DNA from: Aurantibacillus circumpalustris
GTDB taxonomy: Bacteria > Bacteroidota > Bacteroidia > B-17B0 > Aurantibacillaceae
Assembly (NCBI RefSeq): GCF_029625215.1
Contig: NZ_CP121197.1
Coordinates: 372,001-436,000 of the forward strand
Reading direction: 5' to 3'
DNA length: 64,000 nucleotides
Made by a program: the position numbers and the translations under genes. The notes below the pieces were generated by a model. That model was not told where the DNA came from and did not search any database. It saw only the letters and a list, made by a program, of their open reading frames with translations. Position 1 is the stretch's first letter, and the number at the start of each line of letters is the position of its first letter. This document shows, one piece after another, positions 8,329-29,103 of the stretch.

Positions 8329-9117
8329 TTATAGATCATTGGCATTCGCAATTAACTCGGCAACGTCCAAAACTTTGGTTTTATCTTCTTTATTAAAGTG
8401 CTTTACACCGTCTGTCATCATTGTATTACAAAATGGACAACCAACGGCTATAACATCAGGATTAAGAGCAAGTGCTTCTTCTGCGCGTTCGTTATTAACT
8501 TCCTTTGTACCCTTTTCTGCTTCCTTAAACATTTGCGCGCCGCCAGCACCGCAGCATAAACCTTTTGCTCTGCTACGTTTCATTTCCATTAACTCTACAT
8601 CCAACTTCTGAATAACCTCGCGCGGTGCTTCATACACATCGTTTGCTCTTCCTAAATAACAGGGGTCGTGAAACACAATTTTCTTTCCTTTAAACTCCCC
8701 GCCTTGCACTTTTAATTTGCCGGTATCAATGAGTTCTTGCACAAGCTGCGTGTGATGCACTACTTCGTAATTCCCGCCTAAAGCAGGGTATTCGTTTTTA
8801 ATCGTATTAAAACAATGCGGACAACCGGTAACTATTTTTTTAATTTCATAGCCATTTAAAACTGAAATATTTTGCATGGCTTGCATTTGGAATAAAAATT
8901 CATTTCCAGCACGCTTAGCTGGATCGCCCGTACAACCCTCTTCTGCACCAAGTATGGCGAATTTAATATTCACATGATTCAGAATTTTCACAATTGCTTT
9001 TGTGATTTTTTTTGCACGATCATCAAAGCTACCACTGCAACCTACCCAAAACAAAATTTCAGGGGTCTCGCCTGCGGCGATCATATCGGACATTGTCTTT
9101 ACCTCTATTTTACTCAT
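8329..9117 (-). CDS. CCG-domain (Fe-S)-binding protein, heterodisulfide-reductase-D/LldE type
   Basis: A 262-residue soluble protein with two cysteine-rich CCG-type halves: GCPHCFNTIKNEYP (98-111) with FHDPCYLG (149-156), and GLCCGAGG (186-193) with VGCPFCNTMM (225-234). Such domains bind a noncubane Fe-S cluster or zinc in HdrB, GlpC and LldE. With the membrane Fe-S gene at 9630-10937 it probably forms a two-subunit oxidoreductase moving electrons between quinones and an unknown donor. The two genes are normally adjacent in Bacteroidota; here the GxxExxY element separates them. Confidence 0.85.
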   Translation of the reverse strand: MSKIEVKTMSDMIAAGETPEILFWVGCSGSFDDRAKKITKAIVKILNHVNIKFAILGAEEGCTGDPAKRAGNEFLFQMQAMQNISVLNGYEIKKIVTGCPHCFNTIKNEYPALGGNYEVVHHTQLVQELIDTGKLKVQGGEFKGKKIVFHDPCYLGRANDVYEAPREVIQKLDVELMEMKRSRAKGLCCGAGGAQMFKEAEKGTKEVNNERAEEALALNPDVIAVGCPFCNTMMTDGVKHFNKEDKTKVLDVAELIANANDL

Positions 9118-9133
9118 ACTTCTTTCAAAATTT

Positions 9134-9630
9134 AACCACTAAGGCACTAAGGGCACTCAGTGACACTAAGTTATTAATTAATCTTTAGGTAATTTAGAAA
9201 ATTCCTCTGTCACTAAAGGAACTAATTGTTTTGTAATATTTTCATAATGAAAATTTATTAGCAATCCTTTTGGCATTTGCGAAAGTTTTAAATAGGATAA
9301 TAGTTGTGCCTTATAAAGTGGTATCCTAGCCTCGACGGCCTTTAATTCAACGACAATTAAACTATTTATTAATAAATCTAATTTTAACATTCCTCCTAAA
9401 TTTTTTCCTTTATAATGCACTGGCACATGAATTTGCGATTGCACTTTTAAACCAATTTCATTTAATTCGTCGACTAGGCAAGAATGATAAACAGACTCTA
9501 ACAATCCCGGCCCTAATTGTTTGTGCACTTCAATAGCTCCACCAACAATTTGATATGAAATCTCATTAATATATTTCTGAGTAATCATATTCTCTTAGTG
9601 TTCTTTAGTGCGCTGAGTGTCTTAGTGGTT
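9134..9630. mobile_element. GxxExxY element bounded by 37-nt imperfect inverted repeats
   Basis: Bases 9134-9170 and the reverse complement of 9594-9630 match at 30 of 37 positions. Both arms consist of AACCACTAAGG/CACTAAG-like units. The interval between the arms is almost completely filled by the GxxExxY gene. The element separates two Fe-S subunit genes, and its right arm overlaps the stop codon (9630-9632) of the upstream gene. Related arms without a gene occur at several intergenic sites in this window. Mobility is inferred from arrangement; I see no transposase and no clear target-site duplication. Confidence 0.55.
9178..9588 (-). CDS. GxxExxY protein (PD-(D/E)XK nuclease-like fold)
   Basis: A 136-residue protein with the family-defining GLLESVY (G28-E31-Y34) and the putative nuclease core KLDLL...VVELK (D71, E81, K83). 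The arrangement E31...D71...ExK81-83 fits a PD-(D/E)XK active site. The function is not established. The gene sits inside a pair of 37-nt inverted repeats, with 7 bases between the left arm and its stop codon and 5 between its start codon and the right arm. It interrupts a four-gene operon, which suggests the gene and repeats arrived as a unit. Confidence 0.88.
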   Translation of the reverse strand: MITQKYINEISYQIVGGAIEVHKQLGPGLLESVYHSCLVDELNEIGLKVQSQIHVPVHYKGKNLGGMLKLDLLINSLIVVELKAVEARIPLYKAQLLSYLKLSQMPKGLLINFHYENITKQLVPLVTEEFSKLPKD

Positions 9631-10937
9631 TAAGACTCAGTAACCCAATTAGCGCGATCGGCCTGAGCAAACTGCCAAGGAGCACCATTGTTTTCTATGT
9701 TTGTAAACATTCCATTTAATTCAGAAGGACTTTGACTTTCTTCCATCACTAAATATCTTCTCATTTCAATAATAATTGCCAAAGGATCAATGTTTATAGG
9801 ACATTCCTGAACACACGCATTACAAGTATTACAGGCCCAAACTTCTTCGGCTGTTGTATAATCTCCTAATAAAGATTTCCCATCATCGACAAACACCCCT
9901 TGGTTTTTATCCATGTTACGCCCCACCTCTTCCATTCGGTCGCGTGTGTCCATCATGATTTTTCGTGGAGACAATTTCTTGCCAGTCATGTTTTGAGGAC
10001 AAGCAGACGTGCATCTACCGCATTCTGTGCAAGAATAAGCGTCCATTAAATTTTTCCAACCAAGATCCTGAACATCCTTTACACCAAAACGTACAGGATT
10101 GTTAGGATCTGTTTTTGCAACATAAGCCGGATCGAAATTAGGAGCTACCACATCTGTAACAGCGTCTAATGTATTGAACTGTCCCTTTGGTTTTAGATTA
10201 GAAAAATACGTATTCGGAAATGCCAAAAGAATATGAAGGTGTTTTGAGTAGGGCAAATAATTCAAGAAGGCGAAAATGCCTATAATGTGTAACCACCAGC
10301 AAACGCGCTCAATAAGAATTAAGGACCCATCAGACATGCCACTTAACATCGGCGCAAAAAAACCACTTATAGGAAAACTTCCCGCCTGGTGATAATGCTC
10401 GTTGCCGCGCAACTGCAAATTTTGATCAGCAGCATTCATTAGCATTAACGCTGTCATTAAAATCATTTCAGTAATTAAAATAGCGTTGGCATCTAGACTC
10501 GGAAATCCTTTTAATTCCGAATTCCAAAAACGCTTTACTTTCATTACGTTTCTACGTAACCAAAAAACAACTACACCAATAAACACACCTAAGGCAAGAA
10601 TTTCAAAAAAAGCGATTAAGAAATTATAAAAACCTCCTAAGAAAGCAAAAGCACGGTGAGAGTTGGTTAAACCGTCAACAAACATCTCTAGTACTTCAAT
10701 GTTGATTAAAACAAAACCAACGTAAACAAGAATGTGCATCACAGCACTGATAGGTCGTGTTAGCATTTTGCTTTGCCCCAGTGCAACAAGAACCATTGTC
10801 TTAAGACGTTCGCCCTTGTTATCTGTAATTGGAAAATTTTTTCCGATAAAAATATTACGACGAATTTTTACAGCGTTCACGTAAAAAAAAGAAGCAGAGC
10901 CGATAAAAATTATAGTGAAAATAATAGAACTGATCAT
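9630..10937 (-). CDS. Membrane 4Fe-4S dicluster oxidoreductase subunit
   Basis: A 435-residue protein with about five to six membrane helices in the N-terminal 230 residues (for example 1-21, 64-82, 104-127, 153-170, 207-228), resembling the membrane subunit of heterodisulfide-reductase-like complexes. Two ferredoxin-type clusters follow: C303-x2-C306-x2-C309-x3-C313-P and C369-x2-C372-x2-C375-x3-C379-P. It should pass electrons from the membrane quinone pool to the CCG-domain partner. It follows the MCE gene by 24 bases, and its stop codon overlaps the right arm of the GxxExxY element. Confidence 0.87.
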   Translation of the reverse strand: MISSIIFTIIFIGSASFFYVNAVKIRRNIFIGKNFPITDNKGERLKTMVLVALGQSKMLTRPISAVMHILVYVGFVLINIEVLEMFVDGLTNSHRAFAFLGGFYNFLIAFFEILALGVFIGVVVFWLRRNVMKVKRFWNSELKGFPSLDANAILITEMILMTALMLMNAADQNLQLRGNEHYHQAGSFPISGFFAPMLSGMSDGSLILIERVCWWLHIIGIFAFLNYLPYSKHLHILLAFPNTYFSNLKPKGQFNTLDAVTDVVAPNFDPAYVAKTDPNNPVRFGVKDVQDLGWKNLMDAYSCTECGRCTSACPQNMTGKKLSPRKIMMDTRDRMEEVGRNMDKNQGVFVDDGKSLLGDYTTAEEVWACNTCNACVQECPINIDPLAIIIEMRRYLVMEESQSPSELNGMFTNIENNGAPWQFAQADRANWVTES

Positions 10938-21906: not shown

Positions 21907-22983
21907 TTAAGAATTCATCAAGCCATTTTGTATGCGAATACTTTCTTCATGTAACAACTGACAAATTTTTTCGATGTGTTGTCTCGAAATACCCATTTTA
22001 TCAGCCCATTGACCGCGCGTTCTCAAAATCTCTTGCCAACGTTCTAATTGAAAAATAGTAATATCATGTTCCTTTTTATAAGCGCCAATCTCTTCTATAA
22101 TCTGTATTCTTTTTTTCAGAACATTCATTAACTCATCATCAATCTCATCAATTATTTTGCGCAACTCTAACAACTTATCTGTTGTTTCGGGATCGTCAGA
22201 ACTTTGTTTACGCAAAACAAGATTTGAAATTAATTCATCCAATTTTTTTGGTGTGAGCTGTTGTTCAGCGTCACTCAATGCAATTGAGGGATCATAATGC
22301 GACTCAATCATCAAACCATTCATTCCTAAATCTAAAGCCTTTTGAGCCACAGAAGAAATCAATTCATGATTCCCACTAATATGGCTTGGATCACAAATAA
22401 TTGGCAAGCCCGGAAATAGTGTGCGCAACTCAATAGGCACTTGCCACAGTGGTTTGTTTCTGTATTTCGTTTTCCCATAAAAGTGAAAACCTCGGTGAAT
22501 CGCGGCAATTTTTGTAATGCCACTATTATAAACACGTTCAATGGCTCCCAGCCACAATTGCAGGTCCGCGTGAATGGGGTTTTTCACCATCACTGGCGTA
22601 TTTGTTCCCATTAAAACATCTGCAATTTCCTGAACACTAAATGGGTTTACGGTAGTGCGCGCGCCAATCCACAACACATCTATGCCATATTTGAGCGCTA
22701 ATTCAGTGTGATGCGCATTCGCCACTTCAACCGTTATTTTAAACCCAAATTCTTTTTTTACCTCAACCAACCATTTTAAGGCCTCTTCTCCTCTGCCTTC
22801 AAAGGCATTTGGACGTGTTCGCGGTTTCCAAACTCCTGCTCTGAACAAAGAAATCTTGTTTGTCTCTTTTAACTCCTTTGCAGTGCGCATTAATTGGTCA
22901 AAACTCTCGGCACCACAAGGTCCTGCTATTATTAAAGGGCTAGCCACTTCCGGTAACCAGGTATTTAGGGGTTCAAACTGCAT
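21907..22983 (-). CDS. Bifunctional DAHP synthase / chorismate mutase
   Basis: A 358-residue fusion. Residues 1-260 are a class I-beta (KDO8PS-like) DAHP synthase: IAGPCGAES (19-27), RAGVWKPRTRP (48-58), GARTTVNPF, VKNPIHADL and IICDPSHISGNHEL (about 202-215). Residues 268-356 are a type II (AroQ) chorismate mutase helical domain (LLELRKIIDEIDDELMNVL ... IGAYKKEHDI). It condenses PEP and erythrose-4-phosphate to open the shikimate pathway and also converts chorismate to prephenate. The mutase domain probably mediates feedback control of the synthase, as in related fusions. It stands alone on the minus strand. Confidence 0.95.
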   Translation of the reverse strand: MQFEPLNTWLPEVASPLIIAGPCGAESFDQLMRTAKELKETNKISLFRAGVWKPRTRPNAFEGRGEEALKWLVEVKKEFGFKITVEVANAHHTELALKYGIDVLWIGARTTVNPFSVQEIADVLMGTNTPVMVKNPIHADLQLWLGAIERVYNSGITKIAAIHRGFHFYGKTKYRNKPLWQVPIELRTLFPGLPIICDPSHISGNHELISSVAQKALDLGMNGLMIESHYDPSIALSDAEQQLTPKKLDELISNLVLRKQSSDDPETTDKLLELRKIIDEIDDELMNVLKKRIQIIEEIGAYKKEHDITIFQLERWQEILRTRGQWADKMGISRQHIEKICQLLHEESIRIQNGLMNS

Positions 22984-27007: not shown

Positions 27008-27302
27008 TTAACCACAAAGGCCACAAAGTGAATCACGAAGACCACAAAGGACAATGTGTTAATATTTCTTTGTGTTACTCTCTGTGCTCTCTGTGGTTAA
27101 ATTTGTCCTCTACGCAACCACAAAGTGCACAAAGAAGGCATGAAGGTCACAAAGAATACTTTTTACCCTTTGTGTGCTTTGTGTAAAACTCTGTGACCTT
27201 TGTGTTTAAAAAAACATCTCGATTAATCACGAAGGTCAAAACGCTTATGGATTAATCTTTCTTTGTGATACTCTGCGTGAGTTCTTATCTCTCTGTGCTT
27301 AA
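27008..27302. repeat. Three consecutive CACAAAGG/CTTTGTG hairpin elements
   Basis: Block A runs from TTAACCACAAAGG (27008) to CTCTGTGGTTAA (27100), block B from AACCACAAAGTGC (27116) to GTGACCTTTGTGTTT (27207), and block C from GATTAATCACGAAGG (27221) to CTCTCTGTGCTTA (27301). Each is an imperfect inverted repeat of about 80-95 bases. They fill the 396-base gap between the NTF2-like gene and the amidohydrolase. The reading frames that cross them look like artefacts of the repeat. Confidence 0.7.
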
Positions 27303-27331: not shown

Positions 27332-28966
27332 ATGCTTAAGAATATTATCCTACTCGCCCTCCTCTTTCTATTTTCTTGTTCAGAAAAAAAAACAGAAGCT
27401 GATCTTATTGTGCATAACGCAATAATTTATTCCGTTGATTCTTCTTTTACAATTTATAAAGCAATGGCTATTAAAGACGGAAAAATTCTAGAACTTAATT
27501 CAGAAATAGAAATTCTTAAAAAATATTCGTCCCACCAAGTGATCGACGCAAAAGGGAAATCCGTTTTTCCTGGCTTTACTGATGCGCATTGTCATTTTAC
27601 AGGCTTTGCAACAGACATGTGGAAGTGTAATGTGACAGGAACAAAATCTTTTGAAGAAGTGATTTCCAAAATAATTGACTATAGCAAAAACGCACCAATG
27701 ACCTGGATCTATGGCCGCGGTTGGGATCAGAACGATTGGGAGAACAAAGAATTTCCAAATAAAAATGAACTTGACAGGCTTTTTCCTGACCGTCCCGTTT
27801 TTTTAAAACGTGTGGATGGTCATGCTGCGCTTGTAAACCAAAAGGCTTTAGACTTAACCGGAGTTAATGCAAACACAAAAATTGAAGGAGGCTTGATTGA
27901 AATTAAAAACGGAAAACTCACTGGCATTCTTCTCGACAATGCAATGGATTTGGTTGATCTTAAAATTCCGATCATTAACGACAGTCTGGCTAAACACTAC
28001 TACCAAAAGGCTCAGGAAATTTGTTTTGCTTTGGGTTTAACACAGGTGCACGACTGTGGGGTTACTGAACATACCATTAATTTAATTGATGAAGCTCAAA
28101 AGTCAGGAAACCTAAAAATGAAAATTTTTGCTTTGTTAAGCGATGATTCTACTTATTATGAACCTTGGCTTAAAAAAGGGATTTATAAAACAGATCGTTT
28201 AACGGTTGGCGGTTTTAAAATATACTCTGATGGGGCTCTTGGTAGTCGTGGTGCTTGTTTGTTGGAATCTTATAACGATAAAGAAAATTGGAAAGGTTTT
28301 TTATTGACGGATAAAAAACGTCTTCATAAAATCGCAGATCAACTTATTAATAGTCCCTTTCAATTTTGCACGCATGCCATTGGTGATAGCGCTAATCGTT
28401 ACATGTTGAAATTGTACGCTTCTGTTTTAAAAGGTAAAAACAACCACCGTTGGCGCATTGAACACGCACAAGTTTTAAATCCTGAAGACTTTTATATGTT
28501 TGAGAAATATGATATTTTCCCATCTGTTCAACCCACACATGCAACTAGCGACATGTATTGGGCAGAGGCCCGTTTAGGAAAAGAGCGCGTAAAAACAGCT
28601 TATGCTTATAAACAACTATTAAAAGTTAGCGGACGGATAGCCCTCGGCACTGATTTTCCTGTGGAAGACATTTCACCCCTTAAAACTTTTTTTGCCGCTG
28701 TAGCAAGGCAAGACAGCAATGGATTTCCGGCTAATGGATTTCAAAAGGAAAATGCTTTATCGCGTGAGGAAACTTTAAAAGGCATGACTATTTGGGCCGC
28801 TCATGCGAGTTTTGAAGAAAATGAAAAAGGAAGTCTTGAAAAAAATAAATTAGCCGATTTTATTATTTTAGATACCGATCTTATGAAATGCAATCTTAAA
28901 GAAATATTAAAGACAAAAGTTTTAGCGACCTATATTAATGGTGAAAAGGTTTTCTCGATTAACTAA
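27332..28966 (+). CDS. Amidohydrolase (YtcJ-like, metal-dependent), lipoprotein
   Basis: A 544-residue amidohydrolase of the YtcJ/family 3 type. The start at 27332 gives a lipoprotein signal MLKNIILLALLFLFSC; the frame opens 9 codons earlier without a sensible signal. Metal-binding motifs are DAHCHF (near residue 82), CTHAIGDSANRYM and IEHAQVLNPEDF, with the final Asp in ALGTDFPVE. The composite beta-sandwich (LIVHNAIIYSVD at the start, ADFIILDTDL at the end) is intact. Substrates of this family are varied cyclic amides or formamides; the one here is unknown. Its stop codon overlaps a repeat arm. Confidence 0.88.
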   Translation: MLKNIILLALLFLFSCSEKKTEADLIVHNAIIYSVDSSFTIYKAMAIKDGKILELNSEIEILKKYSSHQVIDAKGKSVFPGFTDAHCHFTGFATDMWKCNVTGTKSFEEVISKIIDYSKNAPMTWIYGRGWDQNDWENKEFPNKNELDRLFPDRPVFLKRVDGHAALVNQKALDLTGVNANTKIEGGLIEIKNGKLTGILLDNAMDLVDLKIPIINDSLAKHYYQKAQEICFALGLTQVHDCGVTEHTINLIDEAQKSGNLKMKIFALLSDDSTYYEPWLKKGIYKTDRLTVGGFKIYSDGALGSRGACLLESYNDKENWKGFLLTDKKRLHKIADQLINSPFQFCTHAIGDSANRYMLKLYASVLKGKNNHRWRIEHAQVLNPEDFYMFEKYDIFPSVQPTHATSDMYWAEARLGKERVKTAYAYKQLLKVSGRIALGTDFPVEDISPLKTFFAAVARQDSNGFPANGFQKENALSREETLKGMTIWAAHASFEENEKGSLEKNKLADFIILDTDLMKCNLKEILKTKVLATYINGEKVFSIN

Positions 28967-29103
28967 CCACATAGGCACATAGATTAAATAGAGCGCAACA
29001 ATTAAAAAGTCCTAGTAAGCAAACATAGGATTTGAAGTTTTGCTTTAAATCCTATGTGACCCTATGTTTATGCGTCCAGCTGGTCCTGTGACTCTATGTG
29101 GTT
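28965..29103. repeat. Nested inverted repeat of CACATAG units
   Basis: The outer arms AACCACATAG (28965-28974) and CTATGTGGTT (29094-29103) are perfect complements. The inner arms CATAGGATTT (29024-29033) and AAATCCTATG (29047-29056) are also perfect. The left arm overlaps the amidohydrolase stop codon. It belongs to the same general family as the CACTAAGG and CACAAAGG elements. Confidence 0.65.

Follow-up and report, generated by a model that had tools for sequence, protein, structure and literature searches.

GxxExxY nuclease-like genes between inverted heptamer arrays: a candidate minimal mobile element lodged between operon genes

The known rRNA IVSs are excised by RNase III. According to passages of PMC4990558, the rRNA IVS of Coxiella has an ORF in its loop, is excised by RNase III and carries tandem heptamers 5' of the ORF. 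PMC3116915 and PMC8266576 describe RAYT (TnpA-REP) and the REPINs, in which a trans-acting gene is tied to its own repeats, many intergenic inverted doublets exist, and enzyme and repeat co-evolve. GxxExxY, on which this study centres, is a common family named only after its motif and barely mentioned in the literature that we searched; in that literature, which took in few subscription journals or preprints, no description of arms or mobility of the family was found. The GxxExxY unit is apparently an undescribed kind of mobile DNA, which lodges between operon genes in many bacteria and apparently in some archaea.

The window, that is, the whole stretch of 64,000 nucleotides analysed here (Aurantibacillus circumpalustris, contig NZ_CP121197.1, positions 372,001 to 436,000), holds one such unit, with the following features in window coordinates:

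8329 to 9117, minus strand: host gene for an HdrB-like Fe-S protein, downstream neighbour (NCBIfam match below the curated cut-off)
9130 to 9632, minus strand: putative mobile unit of about 0.5 kb bounded by the two arms (extent of the DNA similarity shared with elements at unrelated sites)
9131 to 9170, plus strand: 3' arm in inward reading, TTTAACC-type outer end, then CACTAAG, CACTAAG, CACTCAG and CACTAAG (inverted-repeat search)
9178 to 9588, minus strand: GxxExxY gene, 136 aa, PD-(D/E)XK (PF13366/TIGR04256; ORF and profile matches)
9594 to 9633, minus strand: 5' arm in gene orientation, TTAAACC-type outer end, then CACTAAG, CACTCAG, CACTAAAG and CACTAAG (inverted-repeat search)
9630 to 10937, minus strand: host gene for an HdrC-like membrane Fe-S protein, upstream neighbour (NCBIfam match below the curated cut-off)

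The preliminary description of this DNA gave the arms as 9134 to 9170 and 9594 to 9630, identical as inverted repeats at 30 of 37 positions, and a base-by-base comparison bore this out; the repeat search lengthens them to 9131 to 9170 and 9594 to 9633 (40 nt, 80%). That the arms enclose the GxxExxY ORF alone, with 7 and 5 bases to spare, agrees with the ORF list and the arm positions. The stop codon that one arm was said to overlap is that of the upstream HdrC-like gene (9630 to 10937), which lies under the 5' arm. The two Fe-S genes split by the unit are HdrC-like and HdrB-like here, and in 12 of the 30 genomes read for the genus a gap of about 10–70 nt separates them, as the description had supposed.

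The window protein matched PF13366 (E 1.1e-36) and TIGR04256 (E 2.9e-38) in profile searches, and its scores lie above the curated cut-offs of these two GxxExxY/PDDEXK_3 models (126.2 against 22 bits and 130.8 against 35 bits). The residue alignment and the structure model were made from 38 sequences, namely the window protein and 37 of the 80 far loci described below. The residues A18, G26, P27, G28, L29, E31, Y34, C37, D71, E81, K83, Q95, G108, N112 and F113 are invariant in this set, and the conserved positions of the window protein are E31, Y34, D71, E81-x-K83 and Q95-xxx-Y99, with Y99 nearly invariant. We read the D..ExK..QxxxY pattern as the nuclease motif of Cas4, RecB and lambda exonuclease. 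PF13366 and the invariant active-site residues D71, E81, K83 and Q95 assign the protein to PD-(D/E)XK. The AlphaFold2 model on the 38 sequences (pLDDT 94.3, pTM 0.88) had as its closest solved fold SSO0001 (4ic1), known as a Cas4, with a Foldseek E of 1.6e-3 and a VIA Z of 9.3, in agreement with a PD-(D/E)XK fold. The other folds stood at a VIA Z of 7.3 or less, a level graded middling by the tool; the fold lists also include lambda exonuclease, LHK-Exo, AddAB and Hjc. Foldseek with the model gave no PDB match below E 0.001, and the PDB sequence search with the window protein returned 4ic1 alone, at E 0.56. The PD-(D/E)XK-like core proposed earlier was upheld by the profile, the invariant residues and the fold model. 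Cas4 carries a cysteine set for an Fe-S cluster; no such set was found in the 38 sequences, where C37 is the sole invariant cysteine. Judged by its model, the GxxExxY protein is a small predicted nuclease of the Cas4/lambda-exonuclease-like PD-(D/E)XK type. Its coding sequence is under purifying selection, with NG86 dN/dS values of 0.03–0.20 in seven of eight pairs, the eighth being saturated. PADLOC (E up to 1) and PHROGs returned no family for the window protein, and its membership of a defence system was rejected on these two results.

Six GxxExxY genes are present in the A. circumpalustris genome, a single contig of 4.6 Mb. On reading their flanks, five of the genes showed TTAACC and CxCnnAG units at either end, whereas the sixth (L002) showed them on its 3' side alone, and the arm words differ: CACTAAG (window), CACAGAG, CGCTGAG, CACAAAG, CACGGAG and CACATAG. 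The automatic inverted-repeat search missed the arm pair of L004, which is visible by eye. A copy at C1:362233-362553 (L006) has an in-frame stop with its CACATAG arms still there, like a decaying element.

A scan of GTDB contigs yielded at least 573 GxxExxY relatives. The 80 loci retained from these have titles pointing to Bacteroidota, Chloroflexota, Acidobacteria, Proteobacteria, Planctomycetota, Cyanobacteria, Verrucomicrobia, Methanosarcinales and others. In an enlarged set most full-length matches were taken and fragments and contig-edge pieces left out, giving 187 loci (185 unique); the smaller locus counts given below (180, 179, 178, 151, 140, 81, 77 and 76) reflect limits of flank length, score or motif. 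For 76 loci the flanks were long enough to compare the 5' flank with the reverse-complemented 3' flank: the median score was 50, compared with 24 for pairs from different loci, and 54 loci lay above the cross-locus 95th percentile and 39 above the 99th. The direct orientation of the same loci had a median of 35, with 23 loci above the 99th percentile, so that additional or tandem copies of the arm on a single side must be frequent too. With shorter flanks in 179 loci, the median scores were 41 for the own inverted flank, 22 for the direct orientation and 20 across loci; 120 own inverted scores exceeded the cross-locus 95th percentile and 84 the 99th, whereas for direct scores the numbers were 36 and 26. 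The own flank also scored higher than that of the nearest protein relative (45–75% identity, median 29) in 119 of 178 loci (Wilcoxon p 7e-13).

The skeleton C[AG][CT]..AG, taken twice, was found on the expected strand in 84 of 180 5' flanks, compared with 15 on the other strand and 14 for the reversed pattern. The 3' flanks gave 81, 17 and 11, respectively, and 67 loci had it on both sides, while farther out from the gene it occurred in 3 and 4 of 151. Many skeleton-negative loci carry other words by eye, such as CACAGAT, CGCTGAT, ACGAAT, CTATGAT and CATATAAG. There are 59 of 179 loci which do not exceed the cross-locus 95th percentile, and the genes L291, L299 and L304 look armless. Because of the flank matching, the skeleton and the alternative words, and with these exceptions, we regard the arms as a property of the GxxExxY family as a whole. 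A lack of consistent flanking repeats, which would have spoken against the preliminary description, was looked for and not found; repeats are present in most loci, across phyla. That the arms are a local oddity of the window is rejected by the flank matching and the strand-specific skeleton across loci.

Each arm is a short array (about 2–4 copies) of a heptamer, mostly with 1–3 nt spacers, behind a TTNACC-type outer end. Elements differ in their heptamer, which within an element is common to the two arms and their units. Where both sides carry the two-unit skeleton (77 loci), the free word positions agree at 0.724 between facing units, 0.753 between non-facing units and 0.41 after re-pairing (z 10–11). 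Units within one arm agree at 0.72–0.73, and the spacers between arms at 0.515 against 0.364 (z 2.3). Since facing units have no advantage, one recogniser per element fits better than selection for base pairing alone, and pairing as the sole constraint on the arms was rejected.

When the words are mapped on a tree of the 77 proteins, those with at least two members need 32 changes, compared with 51.1 when shuffled (0 of 200 as low), a count which leaves out 8 rows with unique words and which is taken from a weakly resolved tree with 12 of 74 inner branches starred; near-copies add to the clustering. CACATAG forms a single clade (support 97), CACTAAG needs 2 changes, and a clade of 12 (support 98) has ..AT words only, with five further ..AT words elsewhere on the tree. 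CGCAAAG (105 of 500 shuffles as low) and CACGGAG (500 of 500) showed no clustering on this tree. The GC content of the word correlates moderately with that of the flank (rho 0.39); base composition thus has a partial influence on the words. The paralogs L193 and L210 of one genome (G031) have proteins 92% identical, with CACAAAG-type and CGCAAAG-type words, in which, with few exceptions, the units of the two arms differ at position 2 (A to G).

The extent of the unit was read from DNA similarity. The window element (L005) resembles L042, L043 and L044 from −42 to −44 of the start codon to +47 to +48 past the stop codon, and the G031 paralogs resemble each other from about −95 to +28 to +37 within unrelated surroundings. 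Between elements at unrelated sites, the similarity ends at the arms, or within the gene in more distant pairs; between same-site copies in congeners it continues for hundreds of bases past the arms.

The HdrB-like gene was found in 37 of 40 genomes of the genus (own included), and the HdrC/HdrB junction was read in 30. Twelve junctions are empty (L165 with a possible scar) and six hold GxxExxY with CACTAAG arms. Five hold a four-helix-bundle gene (TIGR02436 in L153, L155, L164 and L174; L172 by translated-end resemblance) between inverted arms of quite different words, GGCAGT.../...ACTGCC in four and GATTGAT-like in L164. The other seven comprise three with a HAD-like frame, two with a toxin-antitoxin-like pair, one with a T9SS-type gene and one with arm remnants only. 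The names HdrC/HdrB-like, trpE/trpG, etfB/etfA, nuoJ/nuoK, HAD-like, toxin-antitoxin-like and T9SS-type were given by eye from translated ends, except for the NCBIfam-matched HdrC and HdrB of the window. The same gene and repeats at this exact site in all relatives, which the earlier reading could not have accommodated, were looked for and not found, 12 of the 30 junctions being empty. The loci with the toxin-antitoxin-like pair (L171 and L179) had no arms seen at this junction (9118 to 9629 in the window), which looks like an insertion hotspot for small accessory modules.

A second polymorphic site was read in another phylum. Ramlibacter sp. Leaf400 (L097; L280 in the trpE/trpG set) has an element inserted between trpE and trpG. 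Its arm cores, 30 nt long, are identical, and the gene junction is directly duplicated over 25 bp (21/25); the junction sequence is present once in the sister genomes L289 and L306, which are without the insert. All 40 genomes of the genus Ramlibacter matched the trpE query. The 30 trpE/trpG junctions read included 9 empty ones (L295 by eye), 13 with GxxExxY beside trpE and/or trpG (in L297, L300 and L301 the motifs used recognised one neighbour or neither), 5 with other sequence and 3 undecided. The Leaf400 protein is 38–51% identical to the other 12 proteins, which are 50–88% identical among themselves, and thus two GxxExxY lineages entered this junction. An 80-nt repeat (CGCTCCAAGGCGCGAAGGCCCCCTCGGGGGGCAGCG...) was also seen at the trpE/trpG junction of the genus in L298, L302 and L307.

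No general target-site duplication was found among 81 elements, of which 9 exceeded the cross-locus 95th percentile with about 4 expected; the 25 bp of L097/L280 is the sole clear case. A crude ORF caller placed both neighbours within 300 nt in 140 elements, of which 106 are sense with both, 15 lie between convergent and 11 between divergent genes, and 8 are antisense to both. The sense bias is probably due to expression from the host transcript, although an RNA route would give the same bias. A tblastn search with the window protein (E 1e-5), which would miss more divergent members, found no match among the phages (50,697 records) and 8 matching records among the plasmids (72,556 records), and a phage or plasmid vehicle was rejected on these counts. 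The preliminary reading of a small selfish or domesticated element stands as far as a mobile unit is concerned: with flanking repeats, empty sites and homology that ends at the arms, the mobility of the arm-to-arm unit is well supported.

Arms without the gene were seen in the window, and the clearest of them are given here:

27008 to 27100, no strand assigned: gene-less inverted arm doublet (27008 to 27041 and 27067 to 27100) with CACAAAG/CACAGAG words, MITE/REPIN-like derivative (arm-pattern scan)
28965 to 28982, plus strand: solitary CACATAG-type arm (arm-pattern scan)

More arm pieces follow the doublet to about 27300. The window has 8 same-word two-unit matches, against a mean of 1.0 and a maximum of 3 in 30 shuffles and 4 for the reversed pattern. 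It was claimed earlier that such arms are scattered through the window; the excess over shuffled sequence and the one clear doublet agree with this, but the excess is modest, 4 of the 8 matches lie in one cluster (27.0–27.2 kb), and the match at 22137 is a poor example of the word. The own genome has 28 arm-pattern matches against 0 for the reversed control. The pattern AACCRCNNAG-N1-3-CRCNNAG gave 668 matches in 41 genomes, 103 of them in the own genome, against 32 for the reversed control. The six genomes that lack GxxExxY have 0–3 arms, and likewise 13 of 35 with the gene, some of these with other words. Eight doublets, picked for looking paired, are convergent arm pairs about 90–160 nt apart, between or beside long ORFs and without a gene. 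One CACATAG doublet site is present in 4 of 20 congeners read (flanking gene 73–100% similar) and was not seen in 16; a second site is present in 4 of 10, degenerate in one and absent in 5. In the own genome, arm-pair clusters at C1:570867-571523 (spacing about 157–162 nt) and 1145884-1146406 (105 nt) look like doublets amplified as satellites. L319 and L320, at the doublet site of L311, have other short repeats, CCCCCCT...CCCTTCTC...AAGGGGG, a different repeat family at the same intergenic site. An identity with known Bacteroidota MITEs was rejected, as their ends differ; according to passages of the sources, the ends of BrickBuilt resemble those of IS5-family elements (PMC4596501) and those of the Cardinium element derive from IS982-family elements (PMC9769881).

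Of the 13 genomes with a CACATAG-clade gene, 10 have CACATAG arms away from genes, as do 2 of the 12 without such a gene (Fisher p 0.005), in a comparison whose 62% identity threshold was set after the data were seen, with near-gene arms removed by hand and common descent of the doublets uncontrolled. The two genomes with such arms but no gene of this clade are G020, with 14 arms, and G011, with 2. Arm number and gene number correlate in 25 genomes of the genus, own included (Spearman 0.83). With two arms subtracted per gene, rho is 0.65, and the partial rho with genome size held is 0.27 (permutation p 0.10); for four-helix gene number as a control, the values are 0.39, and 0.03 with genome size held. 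That arm number follows GxxExxY gene number is suggestive only, and some MAG records may be mis-binned.

Similar arms surround an unrelated protein. In 36 four-helix-bundle loci taken from the own genome and its relatives, the gene lies between inverted arms of short period that are specific to the locus (median scores 33.5 own, 22.5 direct, 20 cross-locus), and 23 of 36 exceed the cross-locus 95th percentile in inverted orientation against 5 of 36 in direct orientation. These analogous arms mean that two unrelated proteins share one architecture. Non-rRNA TIGR02436 genes between inverted word arms are L007–L013, L250–L278 and, in the own genome, C1:546388, 547267, 669688, 886071, 1520084, 2197473 and 3206112. 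By translated flanks, the four-helix gene L011 lies between etfB and etfA, and L012 between nuoJ and nuoK.

The explanation that we favour, with slightly better than even confidence, takes the unit for a minimal mobile element, roughly 0.5 kb long, in which a small Cas4-like nuclease gene lies between inverted, element-specific heptamer arrays and the nuclease recognises its own array. Copies of the nuclease would bind the words of both arms and bring the ends together; the nuclease would then cut or resect DNA, and the arm-to-arm unit would be copied or moved to another site. Operon junctions and gene ends would be tolerated as targets, the gene there being read from the host transcript, and a gene whose word matches would mobilise gene-less doublets in trans. 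We infer from the sequences that the nuclease acts on the arms by binding to the words and by cleavage; the transposition chemistry and the trans-mobilisation are likewise presumed. The earlier proposal that the nuclease-like protein acts on the repeats is sustained in part and indirectly, by the conserved residues, purifying selection, one word per element, the clustering of words on the tree and the CACATAG counts (10/13 vs 2/12). Several observations weigh against a nuclease-driven element. We know of no lone transposase among nucleases of the PD-(D/E)XK Cas4-like fold, and Foldseek found no PDB match below E 0.001. No general target-site duplication was found (9/81). The flanks of 59 of 179 loci fall below the cross-locus 95th percentile, 36 of 179 exceed it in the wrong, direct orientation, and L291, L299 and L304 look armless. 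Words also track flank GC, 13 of 35 gene-bearing genomes have 0–3 arms, G020 and G011 carry CACATAG arms without a gene of that clade, and arms beyond two per gene correlate weakly with gene number (partial rho 0.27, p 0.10).

The main rival is an RNA-hairpin (IVS-like) route, which we consider unlikely: the transcript of the unit would form a panhandle whose loop contains the gene, the arms would serve RNA pairing and excision, spread would occur via RNA/cDNA, and the nuclease would have another role. The four-helix parallel is the strongest reason to keep this rival in play, since genes of the rRNA-IVS family have the same kind of arms (23/36) and stand at the HdrC/HdrB junction in 5 of 30 genomes. 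It also accords with the element RNA, which folds with its arms paired (MFE −118, z −3.77, 1 of 100 shuffles as low), and with the mostly sense insertions (106 against 8 antisense of 140), although this bias may be selection for expression and insertions also lie between convergent (15) and divergent (11) genes. The Coxiella IVS, with its loop ORF, RNase III excision and tandem heptamers upstream of the ORF, is a precedent in passages of PMC4990558. On the other hand, pairing alone does not predict that facing units are no better matched than others (0.724 vs 0.753), nor that spacers agree much less than words. Still less probable, in our judgement, is that the arms are a non-autonomous element moved by another host enzyme, with GxxExxY, like the four-helix gene, as cargo (e.g. 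a defence or maintenance gene). The excess of arms over genes in some genomes (G018, 92 arm matches and 4 genes), the analogous arms on unrelated genes and the weak partial correlation speak for such a passenger gene; the clustering of words on the GxxExxY tree, the tracking of the resident gene clade by CACATAG arms away from genes, the strong purifying selection and the lack of a PADLOC match for the window protein speak against it. An old, immobile accessory operon gene with arms as regulatory hairpins, absent from relatives through loss, would suit the conserved protein and the 6 of 30 genomes of the genus with the element at the same site and similar arms. It is very improbable given the arm-to-arm similarity between unrelated sites, the two lineages at trpE/trpG, the in-genome paralogs, the gene-less doublets present in some congeners and absent in others, and the arms kept with the gene across phyla.

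A wider proposal, which we offer as doubtful but possible, is that GxxExxY and non-rRNA four-helix (IVS-type) units are two branches of unrecognised word-armed elements. The protein would recognise the heptamer, both arms would be rewritten in concert when specificity shifts, as in L193/L210, and enzyme and word would form a coevolving code, with a lone Cas4-like nuclease driving gene-less doublets in trans. If GxxExxY drives a mobile element, this would explain a widespread class of short repeats (CACAGAG/CGCAGAG/CACTAAG arrays). A Cas4-like nuclease would join the enzymes that mobilise DNA, a natural series of protein–word pairs would be at hand for specificity work, and a link to the unexplained rRNA IVS proteins would be given.

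Compared with the known systems, the unit shares with the 23S rRNA IVS bearing an S23/four-helix ORF a size of 0.4–0.5 kb and a short ORF within the loop that an inverted repeat closes, and tandem heptamers are noted in the Coxiella IVS (passages of PMC4990558) as in the GxxExxY arms. It differs in its protein family, profile searches giving no S23/four-helix match for the window protein, and in its location in protein-coding operons rather than rRNA, the window unit lying between HdrC-like and HdrB-like genes. With insertion sequences and MITEs it has in common the single gene between inverted ends, with terminal inverted repeats bounding the mobile unit as in classical insertion sequences, the gene-less derivatives and the empty sites. 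However, it is without a DDE transposase domain, its ends vary in concert between copies, and no regular target duplication was found among the 81 elements; neither a DDE nor a HUH transposase was found in the window unit, where PF13366 is the sole profile match. The protein is like the Cas4, RecB and lambda-exonuclease nucleases in its modelled fold and its D..ExK..QxxxY residue pattern, but it is shorter, has one invariant cysteine and so no Fe-S set, and is bounded by arms. In REPIN/RAYT, the repeat-linked gene is a HUH tyrosine transposase and the repeats are single palindromes, whereas here the linked gene is of the PD-(D/E)XK family (PF13366), no HUH tyrosine transposase was found as repeat-linked gene, and the arms are tandem heptamers. 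The GxxExxY gene itself lies inside a doublet, several copies with different words are possible per genome, and the units insert in operons. With REPIN/RAYT as described in PMC3116915 and PMC8266576 the unit shares a gene, here putatively trans-acting, that is tied to its own repeats, many intergenic inverted doublets of one repeat, and the co-evolution of enzyme and repeat.
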